The notes under the pieces were generated by a model. It saw nothing but the letters and a program-made list of their open reading frames with translations, searched no databases and was not told the DNA's origin. The position numbers and the translations under genes were made by a program. Below are positions 9,940-62,367 of a stretch of 64,000 bases of DNA, one piece after another. Location of the stretch: NCBI GenBank assembly GCA_002304445.1, contig NEVA01000018.1, forward strand, positions 1 to 64,000, given 5' to 3'. Position 1 is the stretch's first letter. Every line of letters begins with the position of its first letter. This stretch comes from Opitutia bacterium Tous-C4FEB (lineage in GTDB: Bacteria > Verrucomicrobiota > Verrucomicrobiia > Opitutales > Opitutaceae).

Positions 9940-10719
9940 TTACTTGCCGGCAGCGGGAGCGACCGGCATCGCGGGCGCTGGAGCGCTGGGCTTGATGTCG
10001 AGCAGGTCGATTTCGAAAATCAACGTCGACGAGGGCGGGATGTTGCCGCGCGCGTCATCGCCGTAGGCGAGCGACGGCGGGACGTAGAGCTTGATCTTGC
10101 CGCCCTTGTTCACCTTTTGCAGGCCCTCGGTCCAGCCGGGGATAACTTGGTCGAGTTGGAACTCGGCCGGCTCGTTGCGCTGCACCGAGCTGTCGAAAAC
10201 GGTGCCATCAATCAGCGTGCCGGTGTAGTGGACTTTGACGGTCTCGGTGGGCTTCGGCGCAGCGCCGTCGCCTTGCTTGACGACTTCATAGCGGAGGCCG
10301 CTGGGCAGTTCGACGACCGCCTTGTTTTCCTTCAATTTAGCAAAGAAATCACTGCTCTGCTTGAGGCCCTCTTGCTTGAGCTTACCCATGTAAGCGTCCT
10401 GCTTCTTCTTCATGAACTCGTCCATCGCCGGCCCGATCTTCTCGAGTTCGTAGGGCGAATCTTTGCCGGAAACCGCCGCGCCCATGCCTTTAAGCAGGGC
10501 CTCGACTTCCGCCGGACTGAAAGCGAGCTCGGAGAGCCCGATCCGTTTGCCCATGAACCATCCGAAGGTCTCGACGAGTTGAGCCTCGGTGAAAACCGGG
10601 GCGACGGGAGCGGCGGCAGCAGGCTGGCCGGGGATGTTGAGTTTGACCTCCTGAGCTTGGATCGCGGTGGCAGTGCCGAGCGCGAGCAGGGAGAATGTGA
10701 GAGCGGACTTGAGCTTCAT
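9940..10719 (-). CDS. Exported FKBP-type peptidyl-prolyl isomerase (FkpA/Mip-like)
   Basis: A 259-residue protein with a signal peptide (residues 1-22, Q-A-Q end). It has an alpha-helical, charge-rich dimerisation region (about 42-135) and a C-terminal FKBP domain (about 140-243). Key FKBP features are V-H-Y-T-G-T-L, D-G-T-V-F-D-S-S, V-I-P-G-W-T-E-G-L and P-P-S-L-A-Y-G. Ala/Pro-rich tail. This is the layout of FkpA/Mip periplasmic foldases, which catalyse cis-trans proline isomerisation and have chaperone activity. The ATG at 10719 is the true start: the frame stays open upstream for over 1.7 kb but is there antisense to the LOG gene and lacks protein character. Confidence 0.92.
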   Translation of the reverse strand: MKLKSALTFSLLALGTATAIQAQEVKLNIPGQPAAAAPVAPVFTEAQLVETFGWFMGKRIGLSELAFSPAEVEALLKGMGAAVSGKDSPYELEKIGPAMDEFMKKKQDAYMGKLKQEGLKQSSDFFAKLKENKAVVELPSGLRYEVVKQGDGAAPKPTETVKVHYTGTLIDGTVFDSSVQRNEPAEFQLDQVIPGWTEGLQKVNKGGKIKLYVPPSLAYGDDARGNIPPSSTLIFEIDLLDIKPSAPAPAMPVAPAAGK

Positions 10720-10875
10720 ATGTGGGTTGTAGGTGGACCTAGGATGGAAACTGAAACGGCCGATTTGTGCCGGAAAACTTTTGGATGTGCCGGTCTGCCG
10801 CCCCGAAAGCAAACAATTACTCCCCGCTTGTGTCGCAACAAAGCGACCACCACGTTTTCCCTCCGAATCCCACCC

Positions 10876-12783
10876 ATGACCCCCGATCAATTTTGGACCA
10901 GTCAAGACGGCCAGATCCTCAACATTAAGAACAAGGACGACCGCACCACGACCCTCACCCTGGCCTTCTGGCCGCGGAATCCCGCCGAATTCGAATTCCT
11001 CAAGACCCACCTTGCCGATCTCAAGTTCACCGAGCGCAGCTCCCTGGCCCGCATCGGCATCGAGATGCTCTTGCAAGGCGCCCCCGTCGTCGACGGAAAC
11101 CGCATTTTGCTGACCGCCGATACCTTCATTTACGACCAGAGTTTCCCAAACGCACCGTATTGGAAAAAACTGCTCCGATCGGGCGTGCCCGTCGGCCGGC
11201 TCTTTTTTGCCCCCGCCGCCGCCAAACTCTCCAGCACCGAGATCTGGGCGGCAATCCAGGCCAATGCCCTCAAGTTGCCCAACACCATCTCCATCGACTC
11301 CCGCGGGCGCGTTTTCCTCACTCCGCACCAAGTCAACTACACCCTCTCCTCGAGGCTCTCGCGCCTCAACTTCGAGCACATTGTTTCCGGCAACGCCGGC
11401 CGCTCTTTCATCGACAAGGTCCAAGTCCGCCACGACGCCTCGCCGCTCACGATCCCTCCGCGTTCGGGCATCCTCACGAGTTGCTCGATGTATCTGAAGG
11501 AACACTTCGTCGTCCTCAACCAGGGCGAGGGCAACTTCGGCCTCCACACCAGCGCCATCTTGCTCGATCCGATCAAAACCTTCGGCACGAACATCATGCT
11601 CGAAATCTACAACACCGGCGACCAGCCCGTCGTGAATCCGATGGTCTCCGTAGATATCTTCAGAGCCCCGACCTTGGCCGACCCCGAGTTCAAAACCCTC
11701 GCGAAAAAACGCCAACGCCTCCTCAGCACCGCCAACGAACTCTTCAAGTGTCTCGATGCGAATCCTCCCCGGGACAACGCCGAGGCCCGACCGCGCACCA
11801 AAATCACCGTCCGAGGCCAAAGCGGAACCACCGAAAATCGCAGCGTCCTCGTCCGGGCCAACGAGGACCTCAAGAAATTCCTCGACGGCGAAGCCTGCCC
11901 CATTGGCAGCCGCACCATGGTCCAGGCGCTCGACGCCGCCCCACCCGATGCCGACACCCTCATCGTCGATCACTTTCCCGATCTGCTCGAACACATCGAG
12001 CTGCTCACCCGCATCGGTGACGTGAAGCTGAAGCGGATTATTTTCCGCAAAGCCTCGCGGACCCACGGCTATTTTCTCTCCAGCAACGCCCACGCCCGCC
12101 TCGACACGTTCGACGCCATCGGCATCCGCGTCTACTGGTATGACGAGTCCACCAAAGAGCTCTACGCCCACGTTTACAAAAAGGGTCACGGCTTCTTCGT
12201 CCGCGAGGAACTCACCCGCAAATTCCAAGAAACCACGATTCTCGCCTTCTACGGTTCCGCCGTTGGCCTCGATCCCGCCGACACCGCCCGCATCACCGGT
12301 CTGGTCGAAGGCCTCACCGGCTTCATCGGCCCCAACGTCGGCGTGCTCACCGGCGGCGGCGGCGGCGTCATGCGCCTCGCGACCGACCAAGCCCGCAGCA
12401 AAGGCGCGCTCACCGGCGCCTGCTTCCTCGAGCTCGAAGCCCAACCGCCCGAGCTGGGCGTCGATTTCTTCAACACGTTTCAGGAGAGCTCCCGCCACTT
12501 CCGCCAAAAGTGGTTCGAGGCCGCCGATTTCTGCATCTTCAACGTCGGCGGCGTAGGCACCCTCGAAGAAATCGGCATCGAGATGTGCAACCTGAAACTC
12601 GGCATCCGCCCCCGCACGCCGTTCGTTTTCTTCAATTCAAAATTCTGGGGCGACCTCCGCAAACAGGTGAAGACGATGATCGCCACCAAACGCGCCCCCG
12701 CCTGGATCAACGACTACATCCTTTTCACCGACGACCCGGCCGAAGTCGTCGCGTTCTACCGCAAGAAATTGCAGGTACTCTGA
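10876..12783 (+). CDS. LOG-family (lysine-decarboxylase-like) protein with a long unassigned N-terminal region
   Basis: A 635-residue protein. The C-terminal part (about 445-635) is a LOG-type Rossmann domain. A glycine-rich loop G-G-G-G-G-V-M lies at 493-499, and V-G-G-V-G-T-L-E-E (557-565) replaces the usual P-G-G-x-G-T-x-x-E. LOG proteins are nucleotide 5'-monophosphate phosphoribohydrolases (cytokinin activation in plants) or related N-glycosidases. Ordinary bacterial LOGs are about 180-350 residues, so some 430 residues here are extra. I cannot assign that region; a stretch near residues 195-270 (S-C-S-M-Y-L, then L-D-P, G, L-E-I-Y-N-T-G) is loosely reminiscent of the dCTP deaminase/dUTPase fold. 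ATG start. It is divergent from the FKBP gene with a 156-base gap that must hold both promoters. The CPCC protein follows 26 bases later. Confidence 0.8.
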   Translation: MTPDQFWTSQDGQILNIKNKDDRTTTLTLAFWPRNPAEFEFLKTHLADLKFTERSSLARIGIEMLLQGAPVVDGNRILLTADTFIYDQSFPNAPYWKKLLRSGVPVGRLFFAPAAAKLSSTEIWAAIQANALKLPNTISIDSRGRVFLTPHQVNYTLSSRLSRLNFEHIVSGNAGRSFIDKVQVRHDASPLTIPPRSGILTSCSMYLKEHFVVLNQGEGNFGLHTSAILLDPIKTFGTNIMLEIYNTGDQPVVNPMVSVDIFRAPTLADPEFKTLAKKRQRLLSTANELFKCLDANPPRDNAEARPRTKITVRGQSGTTENRSVLVRANEDLKKFLDGEACPIGSRTMVQALDAAPPDADTLIVDHFPDLLEHIELLTRIGDVKLKRIIFRKASRTHGYFLSSNAHARLDTFDAIGIRVYWYDESTKELYAHVYKKGHGFFVREELTRKFQETTILAFYGSAVGLDPADTARITGLVEGLTGFIGPNVGVLTGGGGGVMRLATDQARSKGALTGACFLELEAQPPELGVDFFNTFQESSRHFRQKWFEAADFCIFNVGGVGTLEEIGIEMCNLKLGIRPRTPFVFFNSKFWGDLRKQVKTMIATKRAPAWINDYILFTDDPAEVVAFYRKKLQVL

Positions 12784-12809: not shown

Positions 12810-12989
12810 ATGGAACTTTGCCCGTGCTGCAGATTCAAAACCCTAGAAAAACCAGGGGATGACGAGATCTTTCCCGTTTGTTTTTGGCACGACGACGCAC
12901 AAACCGACGCGATAGCCGACGAAGTGTGGGGCGGTCCGAATGATTTACTGAGTCCGACAGAAGCGCGCGGTCACTACATCAAATGCTGA
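12810..12989 (+). CDS. CPCC-family cysteine-rich small protein
   Basis: A 59-residue protein starting M-E-L-C-P-C-C, followed by K-T-L-E, then F-P-V-C-F-W-H-D-D and a late E-A-R-G-H-Y. This matches the cysteine-rich CPCC domain (C-P-C-C then I-C-P-V-C-F-W-E-D-D). It probably binds zinc; its role is unknown, and such proteins are often found as small immunity-like or accessory proteins. The family usually runs several residues beyond the Y-x-K position; here a TGA comes right after K-C. The next frame continues briefly (C-G-P-F-D-P-R), so a recent frameshift near the end is possible. It lies 26 bases after the LOG gene. Confidence 0.75.
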   Translation: MELCPCCRFKTLEKPGDDEIFPVCFWHDDAQTDAIADEVWGGPNDLLSPTEARGHYIKC

Positions 12990-13060: not shown

Positions 13061-14368
13061 ATGTCATCTTCCCAAACATCTCTTCCACGCTCCCTCCTCG
13101 TCGTCGGCTCCGGTGGCCGTGAACACGCGCTCGTCCGCGCCCTCGTCGCCTCGCCCGCCGCGCCCCGTGTCATCTGCGCGCCCGGCAACGCCGGCATCGC
13201 CGAGGAGGTGACTTGCTTTCCCATCGCCGCCGACGATGTCCCCGGCCTCGTCGCCCTCGTGCAACGCGAGCAGATCGCCTTCGTCGTCGTCGGTCCCGAG
13301 GTCCCGCTTTCCCTCGGCCTCGCCGACCGTCTGCGCGAACTCAACATCCCCGTCTACGGCCCCGGCGCTGACGGCGCGCGGCTCGAAGCGTCGAAGATTT
13401 TCACGAAACAGATTCTCCTCAAGCACCGGATCCCGACCGCACCCGCCGCGTTCTTCAGCGCGATCGAGCCCGCCATCACTTACCTGCGCACCCGCTCCCT
13501 GCCCATCGTCGTCAAGGCCGACGGGCTTGCCGCCGGCAAAGGCGTCGTGGTCGCCCAATCCCTCGAAGAAGCCGAAGCCGCCGTGCGCGAAATGCTCGCC
13601 GGGGAAAAGTTCGGCGCCGCCGGCCGACAACTTCTCATCGAAGACTGCCTTTTCGGTGAAGAAACCAGTATCCTCGTCGTCGTCTCCGGTCACGACTACG
13701 TCATCCTCCCGACCTCGCAGGACCACAAACGCATCGGCGACGGCGACACCGGCCCCAACACCGGTGGCATGGGCACCTACTCACCCGCCGAGGTCGTCAC
13801 GCCTGAGCTCCTCGCGCGCATCGATCAAGAAATCGTCCGCCCTTCCGTGCACGCCATCGCCGCCGAGGGCATCGCGTTTTGCGGCACGCTCTTCATCGGC
13901 ATCATGCTCACACCCGCCGGCCCGAGTGTGATCGAATACAACACCCGCTTCGGCGACCCCGAGACCCAAGTGGTTCTGCCGCGACTCGCCACCGATTTGC
14001 TCGCACTGCTTTGGGCCGCGGCCTGCGGCCGCCTCCCCGCCGTCGGCCCGCTTGCGGTCAAACCCGGCTACGCCGTCTGCGTCGTCATCGCCGCCCGCGG
14101 TTATCCCGACGCCTACGCGAAAGGCGACATTATCACCTTGCCCGCCCCCGATGCCCTGCCGCCTGCAACCACGATCTATCACGCCGGCACCGCGAAAAAC
14201 GCCGCCGGCCAACTCGTGACCAACGGCGGCCGCGTCCTCGGCGTCACCGCCCTCGCGCCCACCCTACGCGCCGCCGCAGAACGCGCCTACGCCGCCTGCG
14301 ACCAAGTTCGGTGCGCCACCAAGTATTTCCGCCGCGACATCGCCGCCCGCCAACTCACGCGCTCATGA
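13061..14368 (+). CDS. purD: Phosphoribosylamine-glycine ligase
   Basis: ATP-grasp enzyme of purine synthesis that joins glycine to 5-phosphoribosylamine to make GAR. The 435-residue product has the normal length. The N-terminal G-S-G-G-R-E-H-A is at residues 16-23, V-K-A-D-G-L-A-A-G-K-G marks the ATP-grasp lid, G-P-N-T-G-G-M-G-T-Y and Y-N-T-R-F-G-D-P-E are classic PurD signatures. ATG start. The stop overlaps the start of the next gene in an ATGA. Confidence 0.97.
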   Translation: MSSSQTSLPRSLLVVGSGGREHALVRALVASPAAPRVICAPGNAGIAEEVTCFPIAADDVPGLVALVQREQIAFVVVGPEVPLSLGLADRLRELNIPVYGPGADGARLEASKIFTKQILLKHRIPTAPAAFFSAIEPAITYLRTRSLPIVVKADGLAAGKGVVVAQSLEEAEAAVREMLAGEKFGAAGRQLLIEDCLFGEETSILVVVSGHDYVILPTSQDHKRIGDGDTGPNTGGMGTYSPAEVVTPELLARIDQEIVRPSVHAIAAEGIAFCGTLFIGIMLTPAGPSVIEYNTRFGDPETQVVLPRLATDLLALLWAAACGRLPAVGPLAVKPGYAVCVVIAARGYPDAYAKGDIITLPAPDALPPATTIYHAGTAKNAAGQLVTNGGRVLGVTALAPTLRAAAERAYAACDQVRCATKYFRRDIAARQLTRS

Positions 14369-61908: not shown

Positions 61909-62367
61909 ATGGCCAAGAAACTTCCCGCCCCCCTTTGCCTCGGCCTCGAAAAAGCCGCGCGAACAGCCGCGCGCGCCTCCTACTCGCCGTATTCGAAATT
62001 CTCCGTCGGCGCGGCGATTCTGGCCGGTTCGGGAAAAATTTACACCGGCTGCAACGTCGAGAACGCCTCTTTTGGGCTCTGCAACTGCGCCGAACGCACC
62101 GCGATCTTCACCGCCGCCGCCGCGGGCGAACGCGTAGTGCGAGCCGTGGTTGTCTACACGCCCACCCCCACTGCGACGAGTCCTTGCGGCGCGTGTCGCC
62201 AAGTCATTAACGAACTCGGCCCAACCGCCATCGTCATATCGATCTGCGATTCTAACGAGCGCATCGAGACGACGCTGGATCTCCTCCTCCCACACGCTTT
62301 CGGTCCTTCCGATTTAAAGCAAAAAAGTGAGCGCAGACGCGCCGACCGTTCCGGACGACGCACCTAG
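61909..62367 (+). CDS. cdd: Cytidine deaminase
   Basis: Zinc enzyme that deaminates cytidine/deoxycytidine. The 152-residue protein has N-C-A-E-R (Cys60 ligand, Glu62 proton shuttle) and P-C-G-A-C-R (Cys93, Cys96), the standard set of Cdd. The last 20 residues are a Lys/Arg-rich tail. ATG start. It is 12 bases after kbl. Its TAG stop shares the palindrome CTAG with the hisS stop on the other strand. Confidence 0.93.
   Translation: MAKKLPAPLCLGLEKAARTAARASYSPYSKFSVGAAILAGSGKIYTGCNVENASFGLCNCAERTAIFTAAAAGERVVRAVVVYTPTPTATSPCGACRQVINELGPTAIVISICDSNERIETTLDLLLPHAFGPSDLKQKSERRRADRSGRRT

Follow-up and report, generated by a model that had tools for sequence, protein, structure and literature searches.

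Gene Organization and Conservation

The window, that is, the whole stretch of DNA that was analysed, covers 64,000 nucleotides of an Opitutaceae genome (Opitutia bacterium Tous-C4FEB). The gene under study encodes a protein in which a LOG-type domain is fused to dCTP-deaminase-like domains, and it lies in the following arrangement.

9940..10719, reverse strand: FKBP-type peptidyl-prolyl isomerase (Pfam FKBP_C), divergent conserved neighbour
10876..12783, forward strand: whole gene of the fusion protein P0001 (635 amino acids), an open frame of 635 codons without stop
12810-12989, forward strand: CPCC mini-protein gene (Pfam Cys_rich_CPCC, E 1e-12), between the fusion gene and purD
13061..14368, forward strand: purD (GAR synthetase), co-directional conserved neighbour that in most loci lies no more than about 100 bases past the end of the fusion gene

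The frame at 10876-12783 is a real gene, far beyond a chance frame: full-length homologues were present in more than 100 genomes. When 387 genomes of the phylum were searched with the family profile, the gene was found full-length in 35 of the 37 Opitutaceae genomes, and no match was obtained outside this family at E <= 1e-20. Four further full-length members, with 50-58% identity and belonging to two other families, came from an order-wide search, and the complete architecture is present in every true member. The initial annotation had allowed for a fusion confined to the source species; instead it is kept intact across Opitutaceae and beyond. The 80 close relatives considered here were taken from species genomes, and the pattern-based contig scan for the gene covers close relatives only. 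Within genus g16 of Opitutaceae, G433 carries a diverged copy and G223 and G452 have none, which is a natural loss of the gene. An antisense open frame of 855 codons (9940-12507, reverse strand) also runs through most of the fusion gene as an extension of the FKBP frame, and seems to result merely from high-GC codon use.

The homologue survey for a conserved neighbour that had been proposed at the outset gave two: the divergent FKBP gene was present in 84 of 90 loci, and purD in 74, with a median gap of 89 bases between purD and the fusion gene. The CPCC gene does start 26 bases downstream of the fusion-gene stop (at 12810), as had been annotated, but the link to the fusion did not hold, being found in 1 of the 90 loci (L028). 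The mini-gene is therefore probably a recent local insertion, and we rejected it as a functional partner. Among the Opitutaceae members examined, those that have diverged most (51-52% identity) kept FKBP and purD and lacked ywlE and glyA. Three homologues with 50% identity had neither purD and FKBP nor a purine-degradation context. The homologue with 58% identity, from another family, is located at the end of a purine-degradation cluster, where it adjoins a purine permease, XdhC, and a MobA-like gene; this context was found in a single genome.

G389:C37:381000-411591 (loci L150 and L117): complete purine-degradation cluster with xanthine dehydrogenase, uricase, OHCU decarboxylase, allantoinase, allantoate amidohydrolase, and PreA, and the fusion homologue at its end

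The LOG Domain

12232..12780, forward strand: LOG-type phosphoribohydrolase domain, residues 453-635 (183 residues; PF03641 and solved LOG structures)
12493..12510, forward strand: RHFRQK, residues 540-545, invariant; by motif alignment to the LOG of Corynebacterium glutamicum (CgLOG), R543 corresponds to the catalytic Arg99
12544..12570, forward strand: VGGVGTLEE, residues 557-565, a variant of PGGxGTxxE; E565 corresponds to the catalytic Glu122 of CgLOG

The assignment of the C-terminus to the LOG family was borne out by the Pfam model Lysine_decarbox/LOG (PF03641), which matched residues 543-625 with an E-value of 1.2e-8 (35.6 bits against a cut-off of 27), and by the comparison of residues 453-635 of the AlphaFold2 model with solved LOG enzymes (Z about 9-10). 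The nonstandard V-G-G-x-G-T reported for this domain is indeed there, at 557-565, and it is a family trait: the complete PGGxGTxxE is absent, every member having V, T, or I in place of the leading Pro.

In CgLOG, the catalytic pair is formed by Arg99 and Glu122 and the base and prenyl pocket by Met96, Lys100, Glu125, and Trp129 (PMC4979012; for LOG enzymes see also PMC5379747). By motif alignment, the four pocket residues become R540, Q544, I568, and N572 in the fusion protein. These four changed residues, together with R543 and E565, are all invariant in the 138-row family alignment, in which some sequences appear twice. Judging from these positions, the protein has probably retained the LOG chemistry and acquired another base specificity; it is not a cytokinin LOG, the cytokinin (prenyl) pocket being lost.

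dCTP-Deaminase-Like Domains at the N-Terminus

10876..11220, forward strand: domain 1, residues 1-115, a shortened dUTPase/dCTP-deaminase-like domain that keeps the phosphate-binding motif (2r9q superposition, marginal sequence support)
11221..11676, forward strand: domain 2, residues 116-267, dCTP-deaminase-type (hhalign, structural matches)

From 35 sequences, the distant ones among them, we made a profile of residues 110-275 and compared it by hhalign with a dCTP deaminase profile. The comparison gave a score of 38.0 (P 2.5e-5), which none of 100 column shuffles reached (maximum 22.0), and the reversed profile scored 19.2. The alignment spans from the first helix (LSSTEIWAAI on LSDxxIxxxI) to the catalytic Glu (MLEIYN on TLELxN). 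The structural evidence points in the same direction: the best match to residues 2-267 of the model was the two-domain Agrobacterium dCTP deaminase 2r9q, which superposed over 216 residues with Z 11.8 and rmsd 4.8, and domain 2 matched the single-domain dCTP deaminases 2qlp, 4xjc, and 2v9x with Z 9-10. By profile comparison, domain 2 is homologous to dCTP deaminase. The beta fold of this kind suspected at 195-270 was thus confirmed by both profile and structure, and it is larger, a whole domain at 116-267. The initial annotation found no match for the first two thirds of the protein; residues 1-267 have a known fold and residues 300-450 a weak match.

For domain 1, sequence support is marginal (1 of 100 shuffles was as good), but the alignment falls on the functional stretch, with RSSLARIGIEM on RSSLxRLGL and GVPVGRLFFAP on GMxIGQLxFxx. 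We consider it very likely that domain 1 is a second dCTP-deaminase-type domain that would pair with domain 2.

The likeness to dCTP deaminase could also be a chance jelly-roll match, the N-terminus being an unrelated beta domain. Pfam gave nothing above the cut-off in residues 1-440, with no DCD, dUTPase, or DCD_N match in the protein scans; the profile of long dCTP deaminases, which was shallow as available, scored within the shuffles against the N-terminus; and the full-length AlphaFold2 model has a mean pLDDT of 65 and is poor at 150-240 and 435-560. Against this stand the margin of the domain 2 score over its shuffled and reversed controls, along an alignment from first helix to catalytic Glu, and the structural list for the N-terminus, headed by dozens of dCTP deaminase and dUTPase chains. 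A chance match is disfavoured, and we regard it as very unlikely. The matches to PDB "Pizza" sequences at 126-156 were discarded: they are short hits to repeat proteins, and almost none contains a stretch that passes alone.

A Proposed Split Active Site

11035..11058, forward strand: RSSLARIG, residues 54-61, corresponding in the profile alignment to RSSLARLG 110-117 of E. coli dCTP deaminase; R59 corresponds to Arg115
11545..11604, forward strand: HTSAILLDPIKTFGTNIMLE, residues 224-243, with the equivalents in the profile alignment of His121, Asp128, Gly133, and Glu138 of E. coli dCTP deaminase

The reference positions in E. coli dCTP deaminase (R110, S111, R115, H121, D128, G133, and E138) were read from the translated locus; we take Arg115 and Glu138 to be the two essential residues of this enzyme. 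In the fusion protein the motifs are divided between the domains: RSxLAR is in domain 1, where no Glu is conserved at the place of E138, and the His, Asp, and Glu equivalents are in domain 2, which has GEGNFG in place of the RSS motif. R54, S55, A58, R59, and G61 of domain 1 are invariant in all family sequences, as are H224, D231, P232, G237, and E243 of domain 2, so that both half-sites remain invariant though the proteins fall to 50% identity. The long dCTP deaminases that we compared, from alphaproteobacterial plasmids, divide the motifs likewise, with KSSTGR in the first domain and VGEFRVHYAGFFDPGFG...VLEV in the second. Considering this same split, and that in the dCTP deaminase/dUTPase superfamily the active sites sit between subunits (PMC4827122), the natural reading is that domains 1 and 2 would form one composite site between them.

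The lack of an RSS motif in domain 2 and of the catalytic Glu in domain 1 would also fit an inactive N-terminal module, a structural or oligomerising remnant on what would be an atypical LOG-family nucleosidase. A scaffold, however, would not need complementary half-sites that are invariant down to 50% identity, and we think this explanation unlikely.

The Middle Domain

11773..12225, forward strand: middle domain, residues 300-450, alpha/beta (separate AlphaFold2 model), weakly resembling the cytidine/dCMP deaminase fold

Modelled alone, residues 300-450 reached a pLDDT of 74. Their best match was human dCMP deaminase (2w4l), with Z 6.9, a range where common arrangements also score, and most of the listed rows have the cytidine-deaminase fold; Foldseek gave nothing significant for this region. 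The HAE/CAE and PCxxC zinc motifs are absent from the family alignment of these residues, and S394, R395, H397, E372, and E375 are invariant. Cytidine deaminases, PurH, and PpnN were tried as sequence relatives and rejected, with nothing convincing against shuffles; PurH scored just above 30 shuffles over a short stretch outside its transformylase part. The fold resemblance, taken from models, may serve as a weak lead.

Other Nucleotide Enzymes and Alternative Functions

Genome scans of the source genome with the dCTP deaminase, dUTPase, and DCD_N models (PF22769, PF00692, and PF06559) gave no match, as is the case in most genomes of the order. The dimeric dUTPase PF08761 is present in nearly all genomes of the order, including the source genome, which also has dCMP deaminase and cytidine deaminase; with these three enzymes it does not depend on the fusion protein for dUMP. 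We rejected on these grounds the idea of the fusion as a stand-in for a missing dUTPase or dCTP deaminase. Three Opitutaceae genomes (G080, G099, and G143) have the trimeric dUTPase PF00692 and no dimeric PF08761, unlike nearly all their relatives, which is a clean replacement of one by the other. A cytidine deaminase-type gene is located in the same window (61951-62238, forward strand), unlinked to the fusion gene.

These data bear on the main rival to the function that we propose below, a two-step enzyme whose N-terminal module would deaminate dCTP, or a CTP-like nucleotide, and perhaps release the monophosphate, which the LOG domain would then cleave to base and sugar phosphate. The equivalents of Arg115, Glu138, Ser111, and His121 are all invariant, and the long dCTP deaminases with the same division of motifs are taken as active. 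That the Arg115 and Glu138 equivalents never vary in the alignment suggests catalysis and not mere binding, and counts against gating. However, dCMP deaminase and dUTPase are already in the genome, most of the order does without dCTP deaminase and has no trouble, the C-terminal residues of dCTP deaminase were not seen, and the purD linkage points toward purines. A two-step enzyme is a real, if doubtful, possibility.

dCTP deaminases take part in known phage defence, and the homology of domain 2 could place the fusion in an anti-phage system of this type. However, there was no PADLOC match and no relevant PHROG match, and the fusion gene had no matches among the phage, plasmid, or viral records searched; it is a single-copy gene, in a fixed position beside purD, and near-universal in Opitutaceae. 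We find a defence role scarcely credible.

Proposed Function

By analogy, we tentatively put forward, at somewhat less than an even chance, a purine-turnover NMP nucleosidase with a nucleotide-gated tandem module of dCTP-deaminase type. The LOG domain would convert NMP and water into base and ribose 5-phosphate in purine nucleotide turnover. The tandem N-terminal module would form one composite nucleotide-triphosphate site from RSxLAR of domain 1 and the His, Asp, and Glu of domain 2, and a (deoxy)nucleotide bound there would gate or tune the nucleosidase, as the alarmone-binding domains do in PpnN. In that enzyme, the binding of pppGpp by the flanking domains opens the LOG-like core (PMC6717881), and dCTP deaminases are cooperative dTTP sensors (PMC4827122). 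The purine role is favoured by the purD linkage, kept at 51-52% identity, and by the one purine-degradation cluster. Points against the proposal are the low confidence of the full-length model, the single genome behind the purine-degradation context, and the absence from the fusion protein of the domains that flank the core of PpnN. What was observed directly is the LOG catalytic pair, the relationship of domain 2 to dCTP deaminase, the two unvarying half-sites, the fixed fusion, and the purD linkage; that domain 1 pairs with domain 2, that a nucleotide binds and gates the enzyme, and what the substrate and ligand are is what we infer.

A bolder version, which we hold to be doubtful, would make these proteins a hitherto undescribed family of nucleotide-sensing regulators of the purine pool in Opitutaceae: the tandem fold would read (deoxy)pyrimidine triphosphates through the composite site and switch the LOG nucleosidase, which would split purine nucleotides into base and ribose 5-phosphate, so that a single polypeptide associated with purD would balance the pyrimidine and purine pools.

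Comparison with Known Systems

The fusion consists of known domains in a new combination, family-wide and linked to purD. Both LOG enzymes and dCTP deaminases have been studied in depth, and the fusion of the two is new as far as we found: no description of it appeared in the literature searched, a search that most subscription journals fell outside. Its putative split active site is open to a single-mutation test. If the proposal is true, the principle of PpnN, the nucleotide-gated destruction of NMP, would extend to a different sensor in another phylum.

The Rossmann-type LOG domain, with its GGxGTxxE core and catalytic Arg and Glu, is shared with CgLOG (5its) and the type II LOG (5wq3/1wek); from these phosphoribohydrolases the fusion differs in the V for P in the motif, the changed pocket residues, and the 450-residue N-terminal extension. 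E. coli Dcd and the bifunctional dCTP deaminase-dUTPase (2qlp, 4xjc) align with domain 2 over the whole stretch between the N-terminal helix and the catalytic Glu, whereas in domain 2 the RSS motif is degenerate (GEGNFG) and the C-terminal arm is absent. The long dCTP deaminase of Agrobacterium (2r9q) has in common with residues 2-267 the tandem dUTPase-type domains, with the phosphate motif in the first and the His/Asp/Glu motif in the second; the first domain of the fusion is, however, much shortened, there is little sequence similarity, and two further domains are attached. With the cytidine/dCMP deaminase fold (2w4l), residues 300-450 share a weak structural likeness, and differ in the absence of the zinc motifs and of sequence similarity. 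Finally, the extra domains of PpnN (YgdH), the NMP nucleosidase of E. coli, are unrelated to those of the fusion by Pfam and profile comparison: its flanking domains DUF4478 and DUF3412 were absent from the fusion protein in Pfam, and neither residues 1-300 nor 300-452 had profile similarity to it. In both proteins, nevertheless, a LOG core is set within a larger multidomain protein, and a role in purine-nucleotide turnover like that of PpnN is what we propose for the fusion.
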